From positions 1 through 33,799 of the forward strand of contig JAFTQT010000160.1 of the NCBI GenBank assembly GCA_017462615.1: a stretch of DNA of 33,799 nucleotides, in the 5' to 3' direction. Positions 1 to 11,438 of the stretch are shown here, one piece after another (within the stretch, counting starts at the first letter, position 1; every line of letters starts with the position of its first letter). A program made the translations under genes and the position numbers. The notes beneath the pieces were generated by a model. That model was not told the DNA's origin. It made no database searches and saw nothing but the letters and a program-made list of their open reading frames with translations. The stretch comes from Clostridia bacterium. Lineage in GTDB: Bacteria; Bacillota; Clostridia; Oscillospirales; CAG-272.

Positions 1-433
1 CGAAAAAGATATTAAGGCACTCGTTATCTCACTTGGCAAGACCGAGGGTACAAATGCCGAGAAATATATCCTGGAACAGATTGACGAGCTTCACGAAAAG
101 GGCGAAGGCTTGAAGAAACGCCTTGCCGAGCTTGAAGCAATTATGCAGCAGCACGATCTTGCGGAAATCGAATTTGACCTTATTCGTCAGTTGCTCTCTA
201 CTATGGGTGAGAATATCGAGGAATACAGCGTTGAGCAAAAACGTGCCGCCATCAGAACATTTATCCGTAAAATCGTATGGGACGGAGAAAATGCCCATGT
301 GTATCTGTTCCACAATGACGGGGACTATGAATTTCCCAACCCGCCCGATGGTGGAAATACCCCCAAAAATGACAAAAATCCTAACGGGGATTCGTCAGAA
401 TATGACGAGCCGTTAGGAGAGGATAGCGAATGA
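1..433 (+). mobile_element. Right end of a skin-type element inserted in sigK (continues off the window to the left)
   Basis: The window opens inside an element whose right border lies at 429-433, where the recombinase gene ends and the sigK 3' half begins. Visible: a large serine recombinase gene runs up to the border, and immediately beyond it lies a sigK fragment that starts in mid-gene. Known: in Bacillus subtilis and Clostridioides difficile, sigK is split by the skin element, which a serine recombinase (SpoIVCA) excises in the mother cell. Inferred: this is an element of the same type. Its size, cargo and left end are outside the window. Confidence 0.8.
1..433 (+). CDS. Large serine recombinase, C-terminal part (SpoIVCA-like), 5' end outside window
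   Basis: The reading frame is open from base 2 and encodes the last 143 residues of a site-specific recombinase. The visible part has a charged coiled-coil-like segment (IDELHEKGEGLKKRLAELE and onward) and the closing motif FIRKIVWDGENAHVYLF, which is typical of the C-terminal DNA-binding region of large serine recombinases from Clostridia. The last ~35 residues are a polar tail rich in D, N, P and G. The catalytic serine domain lies outside the window. The stop codon TGA (431-433) falls inside the AATGA crossover sequence shared with sigK. By position it should be the recombinase that excises the element and rebuilds sigK during sporulation. Base composition is more AT-rich than the chromosomal genes that follow, as expected of an acquired element. 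Confidence 0.85.
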   Translation, partial: EKDIKALVISLGKTEGTNAEKYILEQIDELHEKGEGLKKRLAELEAIMQQHDLAEIEFDLIRQLLSTMGENIEEYSVEQKRAAIRTFIRKIVWDGENAHVYLFHNDGDYEFPNPPDGGNTPKNDKNPNGDSSEYDEPLGEDSE

Positions 434-440
434 AATACTC
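424..440 (+). other. Skin-type recombination junction (attR-like) with AATGA core
   Basis: AATGA at 429-433 is the pentamer reported, as I recall, as the crossover repeat of the B. subtilis skin element. Read in the sigK frame, bases 429-446 encode Asn-Glu-Ile-Leu-Met-His, which matches the ENEILMH stretch of intact SigK. The break therefore falls at the same codons as in B. subtilis. Read in the recombinase frame, the same bases are the last two bases of the final Glu codon plus the TGA stop. The partner AATGA copy must lie at the left end of the element, outside the window. Confidence 0.7.
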
Positions 441-779
441 ATGCACTTTCGCTCACAAAAGAAGCTGTCGGCGGAGGTCTCCATCAACGAGACCATTGAC
501 GTGGACAGGGATGGCAACCCCCTCACGTACATGGACGTGATCGCCGTGGAGGATCACGTGGAGGAGGAGGTTGATGCCCGCATCAAGTCCGCTCGGGTAC
601 GGCGGCTGGTAGAAACGGTGCTTTGCGAGCGGGAGCGCCAGATCATCACGCTGCGCTACGGTCTTGGCGGCCAGGCGCCGCTCACGCAGCGGGAGGTGGC
701 GGAGCTGCTGGGCATTTCCCGCTCCTACGTCAGCCGCATTGAAAAGGGTGCGCTGGAGGTGCTGCGGGAGCATTGCTGA
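441..779 (+). CDS. sigK: 3' half of split sigK (spoIIIC-like): sigma-K regions 3-4
   Basis: Encodes the C-terminal part of the mother-cell sporulation sigma factor. The protein starts MHFRSQKK, equivalent to the MHLRALKK stretch in the middle of B. subtilis SigK. It ends with region 4: a DREKEV-like segment (CERERQIITLRYGL) followed by the promoter -35-binding helix-turn-helix TQREVAELLGISRSYVSRIE. Homology continues upstream of this Met to Asn-Glu-Ile-Leu at 429-440, so the Met is internal to the real protein and no good Shine-Dalgarno sequence precedes it. The half lacks regions 1-2, which bind core polymerase and the -10 element, so it should be inactive until the element at its 5' side is excised and it is joined to the N-terminal half. 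It is not a decayed pseudogene: the frame is intact and the motifs are conserved. Confidence 0.88.
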   Translation: MHFRSQKKLSAEVSINETIDVDRDGNPLTYMDVIAVEDHVEEEVDARIKSARVRRLVETVLCERERQIITLRYGLGGQAPLTQREVAELLGISRSYVSRIEKGALEVLREHC

Positions 780-787
780 GAAAATCA

Positions 788-820
788 AATCCCCCCGAGA
801 GCAATACTCTCGGGGGGATT
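788..820. terminator. Bidirectional terminator between sigK and the hexosaminidase gene
   Basis: A 14-bp perfect stem (AATCCCCCCGAGAG and its complement) with loop CAATA sits between two convergent genes. The minus-strand side is followed by a T-rich tail (ATTTGATTTT). The plus side has no long T run. Confidence 0.85.
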
Positions 821-826
821 GCGACA

Positions 827-2686
827 TTACAGTATGCACGCGCTGGCGCTTCTTCTCCAGTTATTGAAGTTGACGTAAGGGTTGTCACCGCCAATGGGCA
901 GCATGGGTAGCACGGGCTCCAGCAGCTCGGGAATGGCATTGGCCTCGTCTGCAAGATATGCTTCGATACGCGCTTTGGCGGAAAGGAGTCTTGCCCGCAG
1001 ACCACCGATACGAAGCTCCTGTACCGAGAAGCCGTAAGACTTATTCTCACAGTACCACTGCTCACGGTAAACGGCAAGGAAGGCATCAAGGTCAGCCACA
1101 ATCACGTCCAGCTCCTCGGCTAATGCCGCCAGAGCTCCCTTTTCTCCGGAGAGATACGCGGCGCGCAAGCGCACGGTGAAGTCCGACTTGCGGGTCAGCA
1201 CGCGGCAAAGAGCGGCGAGAGACTTGTAGATATAGCCAAACTCCTTGTGGTCGGCAAAAGCCAGCAGCTGCTTTTCTGCCTCGGCGTAATCGGCGGCCAC
1301 GCGGGTGGGATCCATGTGAGCGTCAAGAAGACCCTCGATGGGATCGTTAAAGAGCAGGTATTTGGTGGGGCAAAGAGGATGCTCCACCTCGTTGGCGTGG
1401 GCGTCAGGCGCATCCAGCGTCAACAGATCCTCAAAGCCGATGCCAAAGCAATCCTGTGCACGTGCCTCCAGCTTTTCTGTACAGGGCTTGCCGCCGTAGG
1501 CGTACTCAGCGTAGTACAGGAGGGTGGTCAGACACGCAAAATTGGTACATTCGCGGCCGTTGTCGCCCCAGCAGGTGACGATCTGATCGGTCATGCTGTA
1601 CTTATAGCAAGCATCCAGCTGCAGCTCCGTGGATTTGATGGAGAAGCGGGAATGAGGTGCAAAGCCGGACCAGGCCCACGCACCTCCGGCAAAGGCGGTG
1701 GGGTTATGGAACTTTTTATGGCAGTCCAGCATGTGAGAGAAGCGCTTCTGCGTTCTCTCGGTGGTGTAATAATCCCAGAAGATCAAGGTGAGCCCTTCAG
1801 GCACCTTGGCCATGACCTCCTCGGAGATTTCCCCCTCCTCCACGTAATATTTGCCGCCAAAGGCCATGCGGAAGAACATATCGCTCCAGATCATGGGCTG
1901 ATAGCCGTTCTGGCGGCACAGATCGACCACGCGCTCCAGATGCTCCAGCATAATATCCGTGGATTTGCGGTAGCCGTTTTTATCCAGATACTTGCCACGG
2001 CCGAGATTGTGCGCCTCGTCCATGCCAAGGTTGATGCGGGGGGAGCGGAAGCATTCGCGGCAGACCTTCAGCATGGCATCCACCATTTCGTAGGTCTTTT
2101 CCTCGCCAACCAGCATAATATCGTCAATATCGTGCACGTTGCCAAAGGCCTTCCATTGCAAGGCCTGCATCAGGTGCGCCAGCGTCTGGATGCAAGGAAT
2201 GACCTCAATACCCAGCTCGAAGGCGTAATCGTCGATCTCCTTCAGCTCCTCCTTGGAGTAGCGGCCTCGCATACGGCCAAAATAAGGATAGCCGGGCAGC
2301 TCGTAGGTATCCTCGGCGTAGAGCATCAGGGAGTCCATGCCCATCAGGGCAAGATAGCGGATCATTCGCTTGACGGAGGCCACGTTCATGACGGCATTTC
2401 TCGAAACGTCCGCCATCAGACAAAGCATCGTCGCCTTGCAGCTCTCCTCCACGTCGGCCTTGCCCGCAAGCTTGCCGGGCAGATAGGAAAGCGCGCGGAA
2501 ATACTCCTTTTTGCCCTCGGCTACAATATGCACACCGCCAGCCTCGGAGGTAACCGAAAGCCCCTTGCCCACCTCAACGGTAACGGGAATACCGGTCGCA
2601 TCCACCGCAAGAGAAAGCTGAGGCAGCAGCGCCTCGGTGCCCTTTTCCCAATCCTTAGGAAGATTTCTGAAACAAATCTTTTGCAT
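827..2686 (-). CDS. Glycoside hydrolase family 20-type beta-N-acetylhexosaminidase
   Basis: A 619-residue protein expected to remove terminal beta-linked N-acetylhexosamine residues. Residues 1-90 form a GH20b-like N-terminal domain. The TIM barrel then begins near 91 with MADVSRNAVM, and LMLYAEDTYELPGYPYFG matches bacterial GH20-like enzymes. The catalytic Asp-Glu pair is in GMDEAH (D223, E224). There is no signal peptide, so it probably works in the cytoplasm on imported or recycled amino sugars. Two start codons six bases apart are possible. The second (2686) has GAGG nine bases upstream, while the first (2692) is only three bases from it, so I chose 2686. It lies behind the flippase gene on the same strand but has its own candidate promoter. 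Exact substrate unknown. Confidence 0.85.
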   Translation of the reverse strand: MQKICFRNLPKDWEKGTEALLPQLSLAVDATGIPVTVEVGKGLSVTSEAGGVHIVAEGKKEYFRALSYLPGKLAGKADVEESCKATMLCLMADVSRNAVMNVASVKRMIRYLALMGMDSLMLYAEDTYELPGYPYFGRMRGRYSKEELKEIDDYAFELGIEVIPCIQTLAHLMQALQWKAFGNVHDIDDIMLVGEEKTYEMVDAMLKVCRECFRSPRINLGMDEAHNLGRGKYLDKNGYRKSTDIMLEHLERVVDLCRQNGYQPMIWSDMFFRMAFGGKYYVEEGEISEEVMAKVPEGLTLIFWDYYTTERTQKRFSHMLDCHKKFHNPTAFAGGAWAWSGFAPHSRFSIKSTELQLDACYKYSMTDQIVTCWGDNGRECTNFACLTTLLYYAEYAYGGKPCTEKLEARAQDCFGIGFEDLLTLDAPDAHANEVEHPLCPTKYLLFNDPIEGLLDAHMDPTRVAADYAEAEKQLLAFADHKEFGYIYKSLAALCRVLTRKSDFTVRLRAAYLSGEKGALAALAEELDVIVADLDAFLAVYREQWYCENKSYGFSVQELRIGGLRARLLSAKARIEAYLADEANAIPELLEPVLPMLPIGGDNPYVNFNNWRRSASACIL

Positions 2687-2743
2687 CGTCATATACCTCG
2701 TTTTTTATAAAATTCAACAATAGATCAGCCTATCTTGCTTTTT

Positions 2744-2773
2744 ATCATACCACAAACCCGGCGGCGTTGTCTA
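2744..2773 (-). promoter_or_regulatory. Candidate sigma-A promoter of the hexosaminidase gene
   Basis: On the minus strand TAGACA (2768-2773) and TATGAT (2744-2749) are separated by 18 bases. It lies about 60 bases upstream of the start codon, in the 113-base gap after the flippase gene. Confidence 0.5.
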
Positions 2774-2799
2774 TAAAAATGTTGCCATCTTTTGCTCTG

Positions 2800-4245
2800 T
2801 TATTGCTTTTTCCGCAGTTTGGAACAAAGTGCATGATACACCACCTGCAGCTCCGGGAAAAGCACCTTCACCGCTACGGGCAGCATGCCTGCCAGCACCG
2901 CCACACTCCAAATGGGCGTAAGACGTAAAAACACCAATGCCACCAAGACAGCCAGCGGCAAGAACCACAAAAGATGCCATAAGCGCAGGCGCAGACGAGC
3001 GCCCCGACAAAGCGCCACAAGGCGGATGGCCACCGTTACCGTCCAACCGCAAAGGAACGAGATATTAGCAGCCTCTACACCAAGTCCCAGGCGGAAAAGG
3101 CCAAGGATCATCACCACGTTGATCAGAGCCCCCGCCAGCGTGGAGAGCAAAATGATACCGGTTTTTCTCGCCGCGCCAAAAATGGGATCCAAAAAGGAGC
3201 TGAACACAGAAAGGAAGGCACCGAAAAAGGCGAGGGGCAAAAGCTTCACCGCCTCGGCATACGAAGCGTGAATAAAATTTGGGAAGATCCAAAGGCCTAT
3301 ACGGATAGCGGGCAAAAGCAACAGCAGCATAGCCATGAAAACGCGCAGGAAAAGGTCGGTTTTTTCGGAATAATAGCGACAGCTTTCCGCACCCTCGTCG
3401 AAGCCCCTGGCAAAGGAGACCTCCTGCCAGGCAAATTGGAAGCAGGTGGAGACAAACACCAAAATTTGTGTAAATTTCAGGGCAATGGCATAATAACCGT
3501 TGGCCTCGGCACCGAGACAGGCCGTTACCAGCACGCGGTTGAGGGAATTCAGCAGCCAGAAGGCGGCGGAATTGAGCCCCAGCGGCAAACAAAAGGCCAG
3601 CAGCCGTCTGCAAACCACGCGCGAGACCAAGTGCCATTTGCAAACGGAGAGAATACGGCAACGCAGGCAAAGCATCAGAATACAAACGCCGGCACCAACG
3701 CAAAACGCGATATAAAGCGACTGATAGCCCATGCCCAAGCCAAGGATCAGCACCAGATTGACCGCCACCTGCAGCAGCGTGGGCACCGCCCCCGAAAGGG
3801 CGAAAAAGGCATGATGTCCCTGTGCGCGGGTCACGTATCCTAACGCCATCATGACAGCGTTCAAGAGGCCGTACAGCACGATTAGAGGATAATACGGGAT
3901 CTCCAGAAAAAACGCCGCCACGCCGCAGCCGCCGGCGTAAAGAAGGCCTGACAGTAGCATCAGGAAAAGGCCGGAGGCCAGTACCCGCGAGGCATCCTCC
4001 CCTTCTCTGTTTGCCTCCAGCATAAAGCGCATCAGCCCCACGCCAATATCGAGAAACAAGACGGAGGAAACGAGAATTGCCACCGCTACGGCGGTATCAT
4101 AGGTGCCCATATCCGCCGAGGGGATTTTGGCGGTATAGAGGGGCAGCATAAAGAACACCGCCAGCTTGGAAAGCGTGCTACCAAGGAGATAGCATAGTGA
4201 GGAGCGCCAGAAGCGCGGCGCTATATTTGATTTTTCAGCCTGCAT
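2800..4245 (-). CDS. Polysaccharide flippase (Wzx/MVF-type membrane transporter)
   Basis: A 481-residue polytopic membrane protein with about 12-14 hydrophobic segments along its whole length. It begins with a short polar N-terminus and the typical opening of the polysaccharide biosynthesis exporter family (WRSSLCYLLGSTLSKLAVFFM, then LPLYTAKIPSADMGTYD). Such proteins move lipid-linked repeat units across the membrane. The start at 4245 has AGGAG six bases upstream; the frame is open 24 codons further but without a ribosome site. It is the third gene of a run with a glycosyltransferase and an EpsG-like polymerase, which supports an exopolysaccharide role. The C-terminus is short and basic. 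Confidence 0.88.
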   Translation of the reverse strand: MQAEKSNIAPRFWRSSLCYLLGSTLSKLAVFFMLPLYTAKIPSADMGTYDTAVAVAILVSSVLFLDIGVGLMRFMLEANREGEDASRVLASGLFLMLLSGLLYAGGCGVAAFFLEIPYYPLIVLYGLLNAVMMALGYVTRAQGHHAFFALSGAVPTLLQVAVNLVLILGLGMGYQSLYIAFCVGAGVCILMLCLRCRILSVCKWHLVSRVVCRRLLAFCLPLGLNSAAFWLLNSLNRVLVTACLGAEANGYYAIALKFTQILVFVSTCFQFAWQEVSFARGFDEGAESCRYYSEKTDLFLRVFMAMLLLLLPAIRIGLWIFPNFIHASYAEAVKLLPLAFFGAFLSVFSSFLDPIFGAARKTGIILLSTLAGALINVVMILGLFRLGLGVEAANISFLCGWTVTVAIRLVALCRGARLRLRLWHLLWFLPLAVLVALVFLRLTPIWSVAVLAGMLPVAVKVLFPELQVVYHALCSKLRKKQ

Positions 4246-4280
4246 CTGACACTCCTTTCCTGCCAAGGGCGGATTTGATA

Positions 4281-5390
4281 TTACCAGAAAAAGCGGTATG
4301 GCATGGCGTCGTACCAAAGGCCGCTGCGCAAAAACAGCAGCACCAAAAAGTAAGCGACGGCAACGCCAAGCACCAGCATGGTTTCAATTGGAACGGCCAC
4401 GCGCCCCTTTTTCTCACAAAAGAGCGGCGGCACGATTGCGGGCAGCCACAAAAGATAAAACAGCTCAAAATAATGAAACAGCCTTTGCAGCTGACCAAAG
4501 CCGGTCATCATTGCCGCCAGCACCACACCCAACAGCATCATTAGTGTAAGAAAGCTTCGCTCGTCAAACCCGTTTTCCTGCACGGGCAAAAGTGTGTCGC
4601 CCTCTGACGTCAAATAGAGCCGGAAAAGGCCATAGACCGTCACAACAAGGAAAAAGGCGAAAAAGCCGTACAGCGCAAGGAAAGTGGTGGGCTCATAATC
4701 GGCATATTTCGGAAAAAGCCGCTGCGCAAAGGTGATAATAGGGCGCACAAATATCAGGCAAATCACTGCCAGCACACCTGTGGCGGGCAAAAGCCAACGA
4801 AGGCGCTTGCGGGTCACGCGCAGGAGCGTGAGGAACGGACAGGCCAAAAAGATCAGTACGCTGGTGTGAAAGGTAGCGGCCAACAGCACGATCAGCACGT
4901 AGGGCAACCATTTTTTCTTCTTCAAAAAGCCGTAAGCGAAAAGAAAAATGGCCACCGCCAAGGCCTGGCGCATAATGCAGAGATACAGAGGATAGATCAT
5001 CAGCGCCATATAAAGGAACAGCCCAAGGTAGGGATTTTTGGCGTGCCGATAGAGGAAATACGTCACCGAGCCGTGTATGATCACGCTGGTCAAAACGATC
5101 AGCCATTGACCGTTTTTGGTAAAAAGACCAATGAGGGCACAAAGCAGCCGAAAACCCGGCTCCGTCCAGGAGGAGAACTGCAAAACATCCAGGATATCCC
5201 GCCCCTCCACCTTCAGAAACACGTCGATAAAGGAAGCGGTATCCCGTCCCACCGTCGGGTGTCGCAGTGCGGAAAAAGCGATCAGTAAAAGGCCGGAGAC
5301 AACGCAAAAGATGCGGCGATTGCGCCTTGTGTCCTCTCGCAAAAAAACGCGCAGCACGGCCATAAGGGCTAAAATGCAAACGTATCCCAC
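4281..5390 (-). CDS. EpsG family polysaccharide polymerase (membrane protein)
   Basis: A 369-residue integral membrane protein with around ten hydrophobic segments. Family marks include the arginine-rich loop with RHPTVGRDTASF, the MRQALAVAIFLFAYGFLKKKKW segment in the middle, and FHTSVLIF just after it. EpsG proteins are thought to polymerise repeat units of exopolysaccharides. Start is GTG at 5390, supported by AAAGGAGG seven bases upstream. It lies 18 bases after the glycosyltransferase gene and 35 bases before the flippase start, so the three are most likely one transcript. Glycan structure cannot be predicted. Confidence 0.85.
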   Translation of the reverse strand: MGYVCILALMAVLRVFLREDTRRNRRIFCVVSGLLLIAFSALRHPTVGRDTASFIDVFLKVEGRDILDVLQFSSWTEPGFRLLCALIGLFTKNGQWLIVLTSVIIHGSVTYFLYRHAKNPYLGLFLYMALMIYPLYLCIMRQALAVAIFLFAYGFLKKKKWLPYVLIVLLAATFHTSVLIFLACPFLTLLRVTRKRLRWLLPATGVLAVICLIFVRPIITFAQRLFPKYADYEPTTFLALYGFFAFFLVVTVYGLFRLYLTSEGDTLLPVQENGFDERSFLTLMMLLGVVLAAMMTGFGQLQRLFHYFELFYLLWLPAIVPPLFCEKKGRVAVPIETMLVLGVAVAYFLVLLFLRSGLWYDAMPYRFFW

Positions 5391-5408
5391 GGTGTCTCCT
5401 CCTTTCCG

Positions 5409-6488
5409 TTACTTTTTACTTTGATAAAATTGATAGAGCCGCTCCGCCGCATCGGTAAGAGAAAAGCCGGCTTGCAAAACAGCCTCTGCATAAGCCTCTC
5501 GCGGTAATGCGGGGGAATGCTCCAGCGCATCGCAAAACGCATTTCCATCCTCCACGCTCGCAAAACGCACAAGGTCTGTCAACGCCACCTCAGGCGACAC
5601 GGTATCGGACACGGCGGCGGGCAGCCCCGCACTTTGTGCCTCTACCAGCGTAATGGGAAAGCCCTCAAATCGCGAGGGGAGCAAAAATCTGTCCATTGCG
5701 TCATACAGCGGCGCAACGTCCTCACGCACACCAAGAAAGCGAACTGCCCCTGTCGGAAAACGCTTTGCTGCCGCGGCCTCGATCTCCGGGCGCAGCTCAC
5801 CGTCTCCCACCAACAGCAGAACGGCGTTTGGGTGGCGGCGGAAAAAGCACTCAAAAATATCCAGCGCCGCACCGTGATTTTTCTGGGGGCTGAAGCGTGC
5901 CACCATACCGATTGCAAGCGCATCCTCCGCCAGATCCAGCTCCTGCCGCATTGCAGCGCGGCGCACAGGGTCAAAACGGAATTTTTCAACGTCAATGCCG
6001 TTCGGTAGTAGCACCACGCCGCCCTCTTGTAGAAGGCGTTCGCCGAAGGCCGTACGGGCAGCCGCTTCACCGCAGGCAAAATAGTCCGTAGCGGCGCGTC
6101 GGCCAAGACGGAACCGCAATGCAAGAGAGGGAGAAACAGGACACCTCCATGCAGCGTGAGAGTGCTGGATCCGCACCGGCACCGCGCAACGCCTAGCTAT
6201 CTGCAGTGCAAGAAAGCCCCATTCCGTGGTGTGCACGTGCACCACCTCCGGCCGATACTGCAGAAAAAGCGCTCGCAACGCCCTTTGATGTGCGAAAGGC
6301 CTCTTGCGCCGAGGAATCAAGTGGATTTCTGCGCCAAGGGCTGCCAGCCGATCCCGACAGGCGGGAACGGTCACGTCGTGGGCTACAATATGAAATTCAA
6401 TATCTCGCGGCATTGCGGCGATCCAACGCTCCAGCAGCATCTCCACGCCGCCGTTTTCAAAGCCGGATATGATATGAAAAACGCGCAC
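5409..6488 (-). CDS. Glycosyltransferase family 4 (EpsF-like)
   Basis: A 359-residue cytoplasmic GT-B glycosyltransferase. The N-terminal domain opens MRVFHIISGFENGGVE, with the glycine loop GGVE at 13-16. The C-terminal nucleotide-sugar domain has NGIDVEKF (163-170), GMVARFSPQKNH (194-205) and the E-x7-E pair E275/E283 in FEGFPITLVEAQSAGLP. This organisation matches GT4 enzymes of exopolysaccharide clusters such as EpsF. Start is GTG with a purine-rich GGGGAGG site upstream. It is the first gene of the glycan operon and follows a strong promoter. Donor and acceptor sugars are unknown. No initiating phosphoglycosyltransferase is next to it. Confidence 0.88.
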   Translation of the reverse strand: MRVFHIISGFENGGVEMLLERWIAAMPRDIEFHIVAHDVTVPACRDRLAALGAEIHLIPRRKRPFAHQRALRALFLQYRPEVVHVHTTEWGFLALQIARRCAVPVRIQHSHAAWRCPVSPSLALRFRLGRRAATDYFACGEAAARTAFGERLLQEGGVVLLPNGIDVEKFRFDPVRRAAMRQELDLAEDALAIGMVARFSPQKNHGAALDIFECFFRRHPNAVLLLVGDGELRPEIEAAAAKRFPTGAVRFLGVREDVAPLYDAMDRFLLPSRFEGFPITLVEAQSAGLPAAVSDTVSPEVALTDLVRFASVEDGNAFCDALEHSPALPREAYAEAVLQAGFSLTDAAERLYQFYQSKK

Positions 6489-6520
6489 GCGCTCCCCTCC
6501 CCTCGCATAATCTATCTATC

Positions 6521-6549
6521 ATTATACAATATTTGATTTATAAAATCAA
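6521..6549 (-). promoter_or_regulatory. Sigma-A promoter of the glycan operon
   Basis: On the minus strand TTGATT (6544-6549), 17 bases, then a perfect TATAAT (6521-6526). Transcription would start near 6514, about 26 bases before the GTG of the glycosyltransferase gene. Confidence 0.8.
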
Positions 6550-6559
6550 GTATATAAGC

Positions 6560-6593
6560 AGAAATACCGTGCGCCGCAGCGCACGGTATTTCT
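6560..6593 (-). terminator. Terminator of the PRPP synthetase/DUF1385 transcript
   Basis: A 15-bp perfect stem (AGAAATACCGTGCGC and its complement) with loop CGCA begins 8 bases beyond the DUF1385 stop codon and separates it from the glycan promoter. The A-T-rich foot of the stem and the following minus-strand sequence (GCTTATATACTTG) give a moderate U-rich tail. Confidence 0.8.
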
Positions 6594-6600
6594 TTGCGTA

Positions 6601-7638
6601 TTACGCTTCGTTGTTCTTTTGCTCCGCTTGGGGCTCGGTTTCCCGCTCCCCCTCGGGAATTACGGCCACAAAGGCCTTGATGGCGCACTCGATCATATCC
6701 TCGGTGGGCTCCCACACGGTGATGTGCTGCAGCCACACGCCGGGGGCGGAAATGATGCGGGTAAGGAGGTTATCGTGGCGCCCGGCTAGCTTCAACAGCT
6801 CATAGCCGATGCCCATGTTCAGCGGAACAAGTAATAGGCCGATAGCGGCACGAATTACGGTATATAATCCCGGCGAAACTCCCTCGAATTCTGCAGGAAT
6901 CAAAAAACCAACCAAAATGCTGACCAACATCATCAAAATAATGAACGATGTACCACAGCGAGGATGGAAGCGGCGTTCCTTTTTCACATTCTCCACCGTA
7001 AGAGGCTGGCCGTGCTCGTAGCAGAAGATAGTTTTATGCTCCGCGCCGTGATACATAAAGGTACGGCGAATATCCTTCATCAACAGCATTAAGGACATAT
7101 ATCCTACCATTACCAGCACCTTGAAAACACCTTCAAAGGCAGAACGCAACCAACGGTTTCCCACCCAGCTCTCCGGCATGATCAGCTCCAACTTGGAGTA
7201 CAAGAACGCCGGAAGCCATTTTAATAAAACAACAACAACGGCCAAAGCCAATATCATCGAAAGAACTGCTACCGCCGTCATCGTGCCCTTACTAAAGGCG
7301 CTCTGCGGCTCCTTCTGCTCGGTGGCGGGCGCGTCGGAGGGCTTTGCTTCAGCCTCCTCGGGCGTTTCCTCCACGAAAATTTCAGAGGAACGCATCAGAG
7401 CCTTATAGCCCATTGCCATCGAATCGATAAAGCCAAACACGCCGCGCACCACGGGCCAGCGGCAGAAGGCGGGGCGCTTCTTTTTGACGATCACCTCTTC
7501 CTCGAAAAAGATCTCGCCATTGGGGCGGCGCACCGCCATGGCGCTCTTTTCCGGGCCGCGCATCATAATGCCCTCAATGAGGGCCTGCCCACCGATGGAG
7601 GTCTTGCGGCAGGGGGGACATTTTTCTTTTTTGCTCAT
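6601..7638 (-). CDS. yqhQ: DUF1385 family membrane protein (YqhQ-like)
   Basis: A 345-residue membrane protein of the DUF1385 family, whose B. subtilis member is YqhQ; biochemical function is not established. Family marks: the N-terminal GGQALIEGIMMRGP, the segment YHGAEHKTIFCYEHG with conserved His and Glu, and RFHPRCGTSFIILMM. An acidic, proline-containing linker (about residues 90-115) precedes two to three pairs of membrane segments. The C-terminal tail is rich in E and Q. The start at 7638 has AAAGG five bases upstream; a TTG codon five residues earlier lies upstream of that ribosome site and was rejected. It follows the PRPP synthetase gene by 78 bases on the same strand. Confidence 0.85.
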   Translation of the reverse strand: MSKKEKCPPCRKTSIGGQALIEGIMMRGPEKSAMAVRRPNGEIFFEEEVIVKKKRPAFCRWPVVRGVFGFIDSMAMGYKALMRSSEIFVEETPEEAEAKPSDAPATEQKEPQSAFSKGTMTAVAVLSMILALAVVVVLLKWLPAFLYSKLELIMPESWVGNRWLRSAFEGVFKVLVMVGYMSLMLLMKDIRRTFMYHGAEHKTIFCYEHGQPLTVENVKKERRFHPRCGTSFIILMMLVSILVGFLIPAEFEGVSPGLYTVIRAAIGLLLVPLNMGIGYELLKLAGRHDNLLTRIISAPGVWLQHITVWEPTEDMIECAIKAFVAVIPEGERETEPQAEQKNNEA

Positions 7639-7716
7639 AGTTGCCTTTCTCAAAAGCAGACCGCCGGCAGCAAGATGTTTGCAGATCCTGTAAGCCGACG
7701 GTGCTTTGTATGTGAA

Positions 7717-8871
7717 TTATTTCTTGTGACCGTTGAAATCCATCTTCATCTGACCGCCCTGAGCCTTCTGATGCTGATCCAGCAGCTTCTGGATGCGCTT
7801 GGCAGGGTTGAGCAGATTGCTGATGGTCTCGTCGTGGTTGAGAGTGTCAATAATGTAAGAAACGTACTTACACATATTCACCTCCACGTACCACTTTTTG
7901 GAAAGCAGCTCGGGCGTACGGTACACCAGGTTGGTGGTAAAGATGCGGGTGATGACACCGTCCTTGAAAGCCTTGTCAAACTTCTCAAAGCCATCGGTAA
8001 AGAGGCCGAAGGTGGCAAAGTTGAAGATGCGGTTTGCACCCTTTTCCTTCAGCTGCAATGCCACGTCAAGCAGGGACTCGCCGGAGGAGATCATATCGTC
8101 AACGATGATCACATCCTTGCCGGTAAGATCCTTACCCAAATACTCGTGTGCCACGATGGGGTTGCGGCCATTGACGATCTTGGAGTAGTCGCGGCGCTTG
8201 TAGAAGGTGCCGATATCCAGACCCAGCATAGAGGAGAAATACATGCAACGACCCATAGCGCCCTCGTCGGGAGAAATGATCATCATATGATCCTTGTCAA
8301 TAACAAGATCGGGATACTGGCGCACCATAGCCTTGATCATCTGGTAGGTGGGGCGTACATCGTCAAAGCCGCTGAGCGGAATCGCGTTCTGTACACGAGG
8401 ATCGTGGGCATCGAAGGTGATGATGTTCTTCACACCCATATTGCTCAGCTCCTGCAGCATCAGCGCACAGTCCAACGACTCGCGCGTGGAACGCTTGTGC
8501 TGGCGACCCTCGTAGAGCATGGGCATAATAACGGATACGCGGCGTGCCTTGCCCTCAATGGCGGCAATCACGCGCTTCAGATCGGCAAAATGATCGTCGG
8601 GGCTCATGGGCACCTCTTTGCCGTACATTTTGTAAGTAACACCGTAGTTAAAGGGATCGCAGATGATGTAAACGTCCTGGCCGCGCATAGACTGGTGAAG
8701 CAGTGCCTTTGCCTCGCCGGTGCTGAAGCGGGGACACTCAACAGAGGCCACAAAGGACTCATCGCCACCGTGGCGCCGCCATTCCTTCAAATAGTTATCA
8801 ACCTGCTGAACAAACGGCTCACAGCCTCGCATACCAACTACACACAGTTCTCCGTAAAGTGATTCCTTCAT
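7717..8871 (-). CDS. prs: Ribose-phosphate pyrophosphokinase (PRPP synthetase), divergent long form
   Basis: Makes 5-phosphoribosyl-1-diphosphate from ribose 5-phosphate and ATP, the precursor for purine, pyrimidine, NAD, His and Trp synthesis. The PRPP-binding loop is VIIVDDMISSGES (254-266). GRQHKRSTRES (122-132) stands where the usual YARQDRK catalytic loop would be, and FDAHDP (153-158) replaces the usual DLHA. At 384 residues it is longer than the ~315 of ordinary Prs, with an extended N-terminal domain and a C-terminal tail rich in K, Q and H. I assign it to the divergent Prs group found in Clostridia. Start at 8871 has GGAGG seven bases upstream. It has its own promoter. Confidence 0.85.
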   Translation of the reverse strand: MKESLYGELCVVGMRGCEPFVQQVDNYLKEWRRHGGDESFVASVECPRFSTGEAKALLHQSMRGQDVYIICDPFNYGVTYKMYGKEVPMSPDDHFADLKRVIAAIEGKARRVSVIMPMLYEGRQHKRSTRESLDCALMLQELSNMGVKNIITFDAHDPRVQNAIPLSGFDDVRPTYQMIKAMVRQYPDLVIDKDHMMIISPDEGAMGRCMYFSSMLGLDIGTFYKRRDYSKIVNGRNPIVAHEYLGKDLTGKDVIIVDDMISSGESLLDVALQLKEKGANRIFNFATFGLFTDGFEKFDKAFKDGVITRIFTTNLVYRTPELLSKKWYVEVNMCKYVSYIIDTLNHDETISNLLNPAKRIQKLLDQHQKAQGGQMKMDFNGHKK

Positions 8872-8927
8872 TGTAGATCCTCCGCGCGTTTTATTATTTT
8901 ATTTTGTACTGCGTTGAAATATATAAT

Positions 8928-8956
8928 ATTATATCACAAATGTTCATGTTTGAAAA
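8928..8956 (-). promoter_or_regulatory. Sigma-A promoter of prs
   Basis: On the minus strand TTTTCA (8951-8956), 17 bases, then a perfect TATAAT (8928-8933). The leader before the prs start codon is about 50 bases and very AT-rich. Confidence 0.65.
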
Positions 8957-8968
8957 GGGTTTTGCGAG

Positions 8969-9033
8969 AAAAAAATACTTTTCTGCGTTTTTTGTCATTT
9001 TCGCACAGTTATGCTTTCGTTCTATTCGCAGAA
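8969..9033 (-). terminator. Possible terminator after mutS2
   Basis: Downstream of the mutS2 stop on the minus strand, TTCTGCG (9027-9033) can pair with CGCAGAA (8981-8987), followed five bases later by seven T residues. The loop is large (39 bases), so this is tentative. Confidence 0.3.
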
Positions 9034-9047
9034 TACACAAAGGGGCG

Positions 9048-11438
9048 TTATTTCAGCTCCACCACTGTGACGCCACCATCTCCCTCGCCAAAGCGACCGA
9101 TGCGAAAGCTCTGTACGCGGCGATCCCGCTTCAAATACGTCCAAAGTGAGGCGCGCAGCGCGCCGGTGCCCTTGCCGTGAATGAGACGCACGGTATGGAA
9201 ACCGGCAATGAGGGCGGTATCGAAATACTTATCCACCATAAACCAGGCCTCATCGCCTGTTCGGCCTCGCAGATCGATCTCGTCCCGAAAATCTCTCGAA
9301 ACGCTGACGCGGAAATCCCGCGCGGCGGTCTTTTTCTCGCCCGGTGCGCCCACGCCCGGCTCGTTTTCGATCAGCCGCAGGTTGGCAACCTTGGAGCGGG
9401 TACGGATAATTCCCGCCTGCACCATCACGTTACCGCCGTGGTCGGGATCGGAAAGCAGCACGCCCTTTTTATCGATATCCACCAGATAGACCTCGTCGCC
9501 CTTTCTGAGGGGACGCGGCAGCTTATATTCCTCGTTGCTGCGCTCCTCCACAGGATTGAAGCGCGCCTCGTTCTCCCGCAGATGCGCTCGCACCGCCCGG
9601 CGGGTCTTCTCCAGCTCCTCGCCAAGCCGCTCGGATTCCCGCTGGCGGCGTACCTCCTCCAGCTGCATAAAGACAAACTCGCTGGAAGCGCGGGCACTTT
9701 CTACCAACGCGGAGGCCTTGGCCTGCGCGGTGTCCAGCTCTTTTTTCGCCTGTGCGCGCAGCGCCTCGGCCGCAGCCAGAGCACCTCCCCGCTGTGCCTC
9801 CAGCTCGGCGCGCAGCTTGGCTGCAGCCTCGCGGTCACGTTCCATTTCAAGGCGGGTACGCTCTAACTCCTCGATGACGCGCTCAAAGTGCCGATTCTCC
9901 TCGCTGATGCGGGATTTGGCATCCGCCACCACCGCCGCCGGCAATCCCAGCTTTTCGGAAATGGCAAAGGCGTTGGATTTTCCGGGCGCACCGATGATCA
10001 GACGATAGGTGGGCCGCAGGGTCGCCACGTCAAATTCGCAGGAGGCGTTCTGTACACCCTCCGTGTCCAGCGCAAAGGCCTTCAGCTCCGCATAGTGAGT
10101 GGTGGCCGCCGTCAGCGCCCCCGCCCGTCGCATTTCGGAAATGATGGCCACCGCCAGCGCCGCACCCTCCACAGGGTCTGTGCCGGCGCCAAGCTCGTCG
10201 AAAAGCACCAAGGAGCGATCCGTTACACTGTTCACGATGGAAACGATATGCACCATGTGCGAGGAGAAGGTGGAAAGGGACTGCTCAATGCTCTGCTCGT
10301 CGCCAAGGTCTACTAAAATCTGGTCAAAGAGGCAAAGCTCCGAGCCCTCGTCCGCCGGAATATGCAGCCCCGACTGCGCCATCAGGGCAAAAAGCCCGAG
10401 AGTCTTGAGGGTAACGGTCTTACCGCCGGTATTGGGGCCGGTGATGATCAACGTATCCCACTCGGCTCCAAGGGAAACCGAAACCGGCACGACTCTGTCC
10501 TTATCGATAAGCGGGTGCCTTGCCCGCAGCAGCTTCACGCGGCGCTCTTCACAGATGACGGGTGAGGTGGCATCCATATTCTCCGCCAGCTTGCCGCAGG
10601 CAAATACGAAGGCAAGCTCGGTAATGTTCTGATAATCGAGCAGAAGAGCGCTGCCCTCAGAGGCGGCCTGCTGGGAGAGCTCCGCGAGGATCCGCTCAAT
10701 CTCGTATTGCTCCTTTGCCTCCAGCATGCGCAGCTCGTTGTTGGCATCCACCACCGCCATTGGCTCCACGAACACGGTGGCGCCGGAGGAGGAGGTATCG
10801 TGCACAAGACCCTTGATCTCGTTTTTGCTCTCTACGCGCACGGGAATAACGTAACGGCCGTTTCGCATGGTCACGATGTTTTCCTGCAGCGCCTTTGAGT
10901 AGGTGCTGCTGGTGATATAATGCTGCAGCGTTTCCTTGATGCGACTGTTGGCGGCGCGGATCTTGCGACGGATGTCGCCAAGGGCGGGGCTGGCCTCGTC
11001 TGCGATCACATCCTCCGCAATGATGGTACGATAGATCCTGTCCTCCAATCTGCGATCCGGCAGCAAACGCTCAAAGATCTCGTCCAGCACCGTTTCAAAA
11101 TGCCGATTGACGCGACTGTAATCCAAAAGCCCGCGGGAGGTACGCAGCACGTTGCCGATATCCAGAAGCTCCCGCGTGGTCAGCGTGGAGCCCTTCCCTG
11201 CCCGCTCCAGCGCCTCAGAAATATCGGAGACCGAGCCGAAGGAGGGCATGCCCTTATCTGCCAGAAGCCGCCGCGCGTCTGCCGTGCGCTGCAAATTGCG
11301 ACAAACGGCCACCCGATCGTCATCCGGCAAAAGCGCCAGGGCCATATCCCGCGCGCCGGCCGTGGGGGCTACGGCAGCCAGCATTTGGAGAACCTTATTA
11401 TACTCCAGCGTATGGAGGGTTCGTTTTGCTTGTATCAT
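9048..11438 (-). CDS. mutS2: Endonuclease MutS2 (Smr-domain MutS paralogue)
   Basis: A 796-residue ATPase-nuclease of the MutS2 family, linked to suppression of homologous recombination and, in Bacillota, to recognition of collided ribosomes. The MutS core comes first (clamp and lever region about 1-300). Walker A is GPNTGGKT (334-341) and Walker B is LVLFDELGAG (410-419). A long E/R/A-rich coiled coil follows from about 510 to 640. The C-terminal Smr domain starts near 717 with DLRGR (722-726) and HGKGTG (754-759), both typical of active Smr nucleases. The start codon overlaps the recO stop (ATGA), so the two are translationally coupled. It is the last gene of the yqfC-to-mutS2 operon. Confidence 0.95.
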   Translation of the reverse strand: MIQAKRTLHTLEYNKVLQMLAAVAPTAGARDMALALLPDDDRVAVCRNLQRTADARRLLADKGMPSFGSVSDISEALERAGKGSTLTTRELLDIGNVLRTSRGLLDYSRVNRHFETVLDEIFERLLPDRRLEDRIYRTIIAEDVIADEASPALGDIRRKIRAANSRIKETLQHYITSSTYSKALQENIVTMRNGRYVIPVRVESKNEIKGLVHDTSSSGATVFVEPMAVVDANNELRMLEAKEQYEIERILAELSQQAASEGSALLLDYQNITELAFVFACGKLAENMDATSPVICEERRVKLLRARHPLIDKDRVVPVSVSLGAEWDTLIITGPNTGGKTVTLKTLGLFALMAQSGLHIPADEGSELCLFDQILVDLGDEQSIEQSLSTFSSHMVHIVSIVNSVTDRSLVLFDELGAGTDPVEGAALAVAIISEMRRAGALTAATTHYAELKAFALDTEGVQNASCEFDVATLRPTYRLIIGAPGKSNAFAISEKLGLPAAVVADAKSRISEENRHFERVIEELERTRLEMERDREAAAKLRAELEAQRGGALAAAEALRAQAKKELDTAQAKASALVESARASSEFVFMQLEEVRRQRESERLGEELEKTRRAVRAHLRENEARFNPVEERSNEEYKLPRPLRKGDEVYLVDIDKKGVLLSDPDHGGNVMVQAGIIRTRSKVANLRLIENEPGVGAPGEKKTAARDFRVSVSRDFRDEIDLRGRTGDEAWFMVDKYFDTALIAGFHTVRLIHGKGTGALRASLWTYLKRDRRVQSFRIGRFGEGDGGVTVVELK

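Follow-up and report, generated by a model that had tools for sequence, protein, structure and literature searches.

A mobile, skin-type island in the sigK gene of a Clostridia bacterium, probably excised for sigma-K, and its mostly non-phage relatives

The window analysed here, i.e. the whole stretch of 33,799 nucleotides from a Clostridia bacterium of the CAG-272 lineage, starts within a large serine recombinase gene, which passes directly into the second half of the sporulation gene sigK (Table 1). This raises the question of what kind of element splits the gene, and how its host could still obtain sigma-K. The window is an entire contig (G000:C96) of an assembly of 2.13 Mb in 172 contigs (78% complete), so that its base 1 is the left limit of the sequence. 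Its left edge very probably is the right end (attR) of a skin-type island that has inserted in sigK, moves horizontally and, we infer, is excised to allow the production of sigma-K.

Table 1. Features at the left edge of the window.
Feature	Positions	Strand	Basis
Large serine recombinase, C-terminal 143 residues	2..433	+	Open frame from the contig edge; 94% identical relative
attR, GGATAGCG-AA-TGAAAT	421..436	+	Alignment to 14 further right ends and to 12 left ends
sigK C-terminal half (NEILMH to stop)	429..779	+	TIGR02846 match; identity to congener sigK
Hairpin, perfect-looking, terminator-like	788..820	+	Opposite-strand self-match (91%), directly 3' of the sigK stop

The sequence-only reading had proposed a sigK gene split in mid-protein at NEILMH, and the profiles agree with this. 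The region 429-776 matched positions 111-222 of the 227 positions of TIGR02846 (E 2.5e-34) and 113-225 of the 235 positions of PRK05803 (E 1.4e-36), i.e. the second half alone of the SigK models, in a frame that opens with NEILMH and lies beside a foreign gene. The frame is open and 78-86% identical to the intact sigK of congeners. Among 20 same-genus genomes, sigK is uninterrupted across the split site in 18; of the remaining two, G013 has a truncated N-half running into an element end and G002 gave no sigK-like match other than sigE-like ones. A sigK N-half was searched for in the window's own genome and not found in this 78%-complete assembly, and neither was an intact sigK, which the sequence-only reading had named as evidence against a split. 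The other sigma factor matches of this genome are sigE-, sigF- and sigG-like loci, identified as such from their scores and open frames, and since these are kept together with a SpoIIID match of 90.6 bits (under the cut-off of 111.5), a sporulation programme is plausible in this organism. The window probably represents the native sigK locus, because the GH20 gene found downstream of sigK here also follows the intact gene in 6 of the 18 congener loci compared, whose sequence covers only some 1.5 kb past sigK. The minus strand of positions 830-8871 encodes, besides the GH20 hexosaminidase, a polysaccharide flippase, an EpsG-like protein, a glycosyltransferase, a DUF1385 protein and a ribose-phosphate pyrophosphokinase-like protein.

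The adjoining large serine recombinase, the other component of the proposed split, was also identified: its C-terminal 143 residues are encoded at 2-433 and match the C-terminus of a 586-residue recombinase of genome G215 (94% protein identity), in which Resolvase, Recombinase and Zn-ribbon domains are recognized; the 143-residue piece alone had no Pfam match above the cut-off. The TGA stop of the recombinase (431-433) lies within the AATGA with which the sigK half begins. Where the host sigK has AAC GAA at this place, the recombinase frame is not terminated at the junction and continues into the sigK region (G215, G330 and G370). The recombinase end was matched (E 1e-10) in 16 of 395 genomes of the same family, own genome included, and in all 15 others the sigK C-half follows it directly; G394 and G034 show the last part of the recombinase alone, since their contigs end there. 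A search for truncated N-halves, covering these 16 genomes plus G002 and G013, found them in 13 of the 16 (own genome among the 16) and in G013, while sigK proved intact in G034, and neither G230 nor the own genome yielded an N-half. A strict right-junction pattern was present in 22 of 394 genomes of the order and 16 of 391 genomes of the class (own genome counted in both), versus 1 and 4 genomes, respectively, for the reversed-pattern control.

A scan of the genome collection with a recombinase alignment revealed at least 585 relatives, of which the best 80 were kept. In 72 of these best 80 loci a sigK C-half starts at most 260 nt after the recombinase match. Among the others, L159 and L166 gave no tblastn match, although a sigK-like start follows the junction in both, the contigs of L133, L181 and L188 end on AAACGA or AAATGA, L137 and L139 have a sigK N-half in convergent orientation, and L145 is apparently not in sigK. 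In L137, L139 and L200 the recombinase faces the convergent N-half, as if the element had been inserted reversed. L145 (Hominifimenecus microfluidus, 142-5535) carries a recombinase of the family that is flanked by an attL-like AATGCTATACTATC and by GGATAGCGAATGCAACC and lies close to a tRNA-like sequence, and an intact sigK is present on a different contig of this genome. An intact sigK is also located elsewhere in G421 and G422, and one genome, G034, has an intact sigK (C9:30429-31070) as well as an attR copy, in which a second C-half (C18:98044-98500; 83% DNA identity) adjoins the element end; here the bin may combine two strains, or the genome may have two such loci. Several of the compared records are metagenome assemblies, others are isolates, some with long contigs. 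Together, the window and its relatives support well the proposal of a skin-type sigK split with a recombinase at its edge. No publication on this family of sigK islands or its cargo was found among the literature listings screened, which cover few subscription papers and preprints.

Alignment of the element ends pointed to the probable site of strand exchange. The motif TAGC[A/G]-AA-[T/C]GA was found at 68 of the 72 C-half starts (attR) in the best 80 of at least 585 scan loci. attL reads AATG in 12 aligned left ends out of 14 that were tried; the search expression did not pick up the other two, G394 and G066, but G394 was found to read AATG as well. The same holds for 14 more complete loci, where L121 and L151 duplicate G208 and G331. 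In the relatives AA is thus common to both ends, mostly as AATG; in the window's element the attR end is seen. The base after AA in attR is T in 59 cases and C in 13, and the host sigK codons vary likewise, whereas in attL it is T in every case seen. Strand exchange therefore should occur at or left of AA, and the predicted crossover dinucleotide is AA at window positions 429-430. The conserved target in sigK reads CA[A/G]-AA-[T/C]GA[A/G]AT, and the putative attP of the family elements nearest to the window is GGATAGCG-AA-TGCTATCC, an imperfect inverted repeat centred on AA with 7 of 8 arm positions complementary.

For 73 loci with both sequences (seven scan records duplicating G genomes were dropped), the identities of recombinases and of sigK C-halves were weakly correlated (Spearman 0.24, 2628 pairs). 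Many pairs combine recombinases that are 95-99.8% identical with sigK halves that are only 39-55% identical, e.g. G215 and L116 (99.8% and 48%), G286 and L119 (99.0% and 49%), Holdemania L174 and Lachnospiraceae L177 (97.4% and 45%), and Oscillibacter L143 and L149 (96.7% and 39%). In seven chosen pairs compared in ungapped 60-nt bins, identity was 88-100% in the element and 13-77% in sigK. The pairing of near-identical recombinases with distant sigK halves, together with this drop of identity at the crossover, shows that the islands move between genera. The window itself provides an example: its element end and that of G394, a genome from a different genus (genera as assigned by the search tool), share 99.2% identity over 124 nt, so the element moved recently, while the sigK bins past the junction are 43-70% identical. 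The Lacrimispora-type loci L179, L184, L192 and L194 (sigK 98-100% identical) look like cases of vertical inheritance.

The window shows 428 bases of its element, and the cargo described below is that of relatives. Both sigK halves lie on one contig, 2.6-28.8 kb apart, in 19 of 30 genomes examined, and on a single contig also in G208 and G331. In each of the 14 elements listed one recombinase was counted by eye. The relatives' cargo includes BREX, PARIS, SIR2-HerA, restriction and pantothenate genes, and glycosidases. Profile searches, of complete elements unless stated otherwise, identified: (i) [NiFe]-hydrogenase, HypF, HypD, HypE, a maturation protease and an alpha-galactosidase-like protein (Clostridium sp. 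Marseille-P2415), (ii) recurring hydrogenase and melibiase genes (Lacrimispora-type elements), (iii) PanB, PanC and PanD ([Clostridium] viride), (iv) a spore-germination permease (Intestinimonas), (v) GH39 (G208), (vi) sialate-esterase and GDSL proteins (G331), and (vii) a PTS transporter and 4-alpha-glucanotransferase (G067, a partial element whose left end is on another contig). With PADLOC, the following defence genes were recognized: (i) type III methylase and nuclease, PARIS AriAB, SIR2 and HerA in L116, of which the 10 kb examined do not include the left end, (ii) PglZ, BrxP and DndA in the record named F. prausnitzii APC923/61-1, (iii) PglZ in Sporomusa ovata and (iv) a type IV restriction system in Pseudoflavonifractor phocaeensis. 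The content of other large elements was judged by eye. The L164 element (252-9584) is full of genes of a [NiFe]-hydrogenase operon, Hyp maturation, alpha-galactosidase-like and cytochrome b5-like proteins. L149 and L195, named Faecalibacterium prausnitzii and Gemmiger formicilis, respectively, carry elements of ~27 and ~29 kb that split sigK, as well as sigE-like genes; the genera of both species are usually regarded as non-sporulating. The left end and the cargo of the window's own element would lie beyond the contig edge, and the variety found in its relatives fits the earlier guess that this cargo could be new.

Could the unseen part of the window's element nevertheless be a phage, as in a classical prophage or prophage-like skin element? 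The sigK elements described in PMC5025042 and PMC13141910 are prophage-like, and the body of the window's element lies beyond the contig. Among the best 80 of 183 IMG/VR relatives obtained with the full recombinase alignment, two (L196 and L197) have the recombinase beside a sigK C-half, so some members of the family may be phage-linked; one more (L200) has a convergent N-half. On the other hand, no capsid, portal or terminase was found in the 74 cargo proteins of 17 smaller relatives (25 of 27 PHROG families listed), in which tail, baseplate and endolysin labels occurred singly, and the nearest fuller relative, L116, carries defence genes; one of its HerA proteins also gave a weak terminase-profile match, as ATPases may. 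At E 1e-60, the recombinase matched a single entry (38% identity) among 50,697 phage records, and six matches at this threshold (40-47%) came from plasmid records; its C-terminus alone had no match in the phage records and no relative in IMG/VR. We consider a phage in the unseen part unlikely.

A fossil, i.e. an island that no longer excises from a dead sigK in a lineage without mature spores, is a reading that might be prompted by the family record L149, which bears the name of F. prausnitzii, a species regarded as non-sporulating. It is improbable for the window, where the C-half is still an open frame at the identity to intact congener copies given above, the near-identity of the element end to that of another genus indicates recent movement, and sigE-, sigF-, sigG- and SpoIIID-like genes remain. 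An assembly chimera, in which an unrelated recombinase end was joined to sigK, might be suspected as the contig starts within the recombinase and the same element end is found in another genus; yet the same architecture, at the same codon, recurs in many independent records, including isolates with long contigs, and makes such an artefact hardly credible.

The relatives also provide a candidate for a factor controlling the direction of recombination, comparable to the factors of skin-Cd and gin (see below). An iterated profile seeded with six of the 17 smaller elements detected a small protein in each of the 17, of which 16 have both sigK halves and the other is L188. It has 53-72 residues as trimmed and the pattern IVHxPxT...ELxxRxAxxH...YIxxLxCPxxQK, its gene lies mostly on the strand opposite to the recombinase, and a small ORF of this kind is also present at the left ends L103, L106 and L107. 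It had no Pfam, NCBIfam or PHROG match, and one member queried against the phage records gave none either. Its constancy, and the parallel with the factors of skin-Cd and gin, make it a candidate directionality factor. A search for sigma-E promoters gave no convincing result upstream of either the recombinase (5 of 19 versus 0.84 in shuffles, with a maximum of 5) or the small ORF (3 of 24 versus 1.0 in shuffles). Inspection by eye showed a TATAAT-like box accompanied by TATGTTAT/ATAACATA half-sites upstream of several recombinases, and L064, L063, L065 and L183 have a similar TATGTTATAATAC upstream of the recombinase, with ATAACATA further down; the TATGTTATAATAC/ATAACATA region is possibly a promoter with an inverted-repeat operator.

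Some contig ends may be traces of excision. In the isolate Lacrimispora defluvii, the N-half contig ends with GAGAATGA, the C-half contig starts with AATGAGATCC, and a separate contig of 7842 bases extends from AATGATATACTATC to CTAGCAAATGA. All three contigs break on one 5-bp core, AATGA, as would be expected if integrated and excised forms were mixed, and the breaks hint at a coexistence of both. At five left ends contigs break 121-139 nt past the crossover, and at two right ends 121-124 nt past it, while six other left ends extend further (0.6-6.6 kb). Such breaks hint that the element is present in more than one context in these samples, for which circles and several hosts would serve alike.

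Known insertions in sigK or gerE allow the island to be placed among described elements. Skin of Bacillus subtilis (recombinase SpoIVCA) is described as prophage-like, 48 kb long and with a five-nucleotide core (PMC13141910); it shares with the elements studied here the split sigK, the large serine recombinase and probably a core of this length, but the relatives examined are of 2.6-29 kb and carry mostly non-phage cargo. Excision of skin-Cd of Clostridioides difficile, which also splits sigK, requires the recombinase CD1231 and a small directionality factor, CD1234 (PMC5025042), to which the constant small ORF of the relatives may be compared, although skin-Cd is described as prophage-like in that account. 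Gin, inserted in gerE of Bacillus cereus ATCC10987, is reported as a non-phage island with a serine recombinase and an accessory factor, restriction-modification genes, a predicted AA cleavage and possible horizontal spread (PMC5595907). As far as these accounts go, gin is the nearest parallel in kind to the islands described here, on account of these properties; it differs in its location in gerE rather than sigK and in its reported hosts, B. cereus and B. toyonensis strains, and it has three recombinases, against the one counted in each of 14 relatives. Alicyclobacillus MMB025 (105 kb, TCTC core) and C. perfringens phiS63 use sigK as their integration site too, but are presented as true phages (PMC13141910). 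Judged by its testable anatomical features, the window's element works like a skin element, but most of its relatives examined are without the prophage content of the known examples. Out of reach of the sequence-only reading was that it belongs to a widespread, horizontally moving family.

A scheme of how such islands may persist can be proposed from these comparisons. The large serine recombinase would join attP to the conserved sigK sequence and so integrate the island in sigK, giving the order N-half (ending in NAIL(S/T) or similar shortly inside the island), cargo, recombinase and C-half, and sigK would remain split in vegetative cells and spores. During sporulation, in the mother cell, the directionality factor would turn the recombinase to excision, by which the island is removed, sigK is joined and sigma-K is made. 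The chromosomes of the spore and of vegetative cells would keep the island, because the mother cell dies. The islands would act as horizontal carriers of mostly non-phage cargo, and we propose that they persist because they are removed solely from the dying mother cell, so that programmed DNA loss makes a damaging insertion site harmless.

In a wider view, sigK is probably a landing pad common to a large family of Firmicutes islands that are mostly non-phage, each with its own sigK-specific recombinase and small directionality factor. They would move between genera and more widely, exchange cargo such as anti-phage defence islands and a [NiFe]-hydrogenase operon, and persist through removal from the dying mother cell only. 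As several hosts are isolates, the persistence of the insertions, the control of direction and the spread of the islands become directly testable. If the islands work as proposed, an essential late sporulation gene is a hotspot for mobile elements, and these spore-formers would complete their spores only after deleting islands of defence or metabolic genes from the mother cell.
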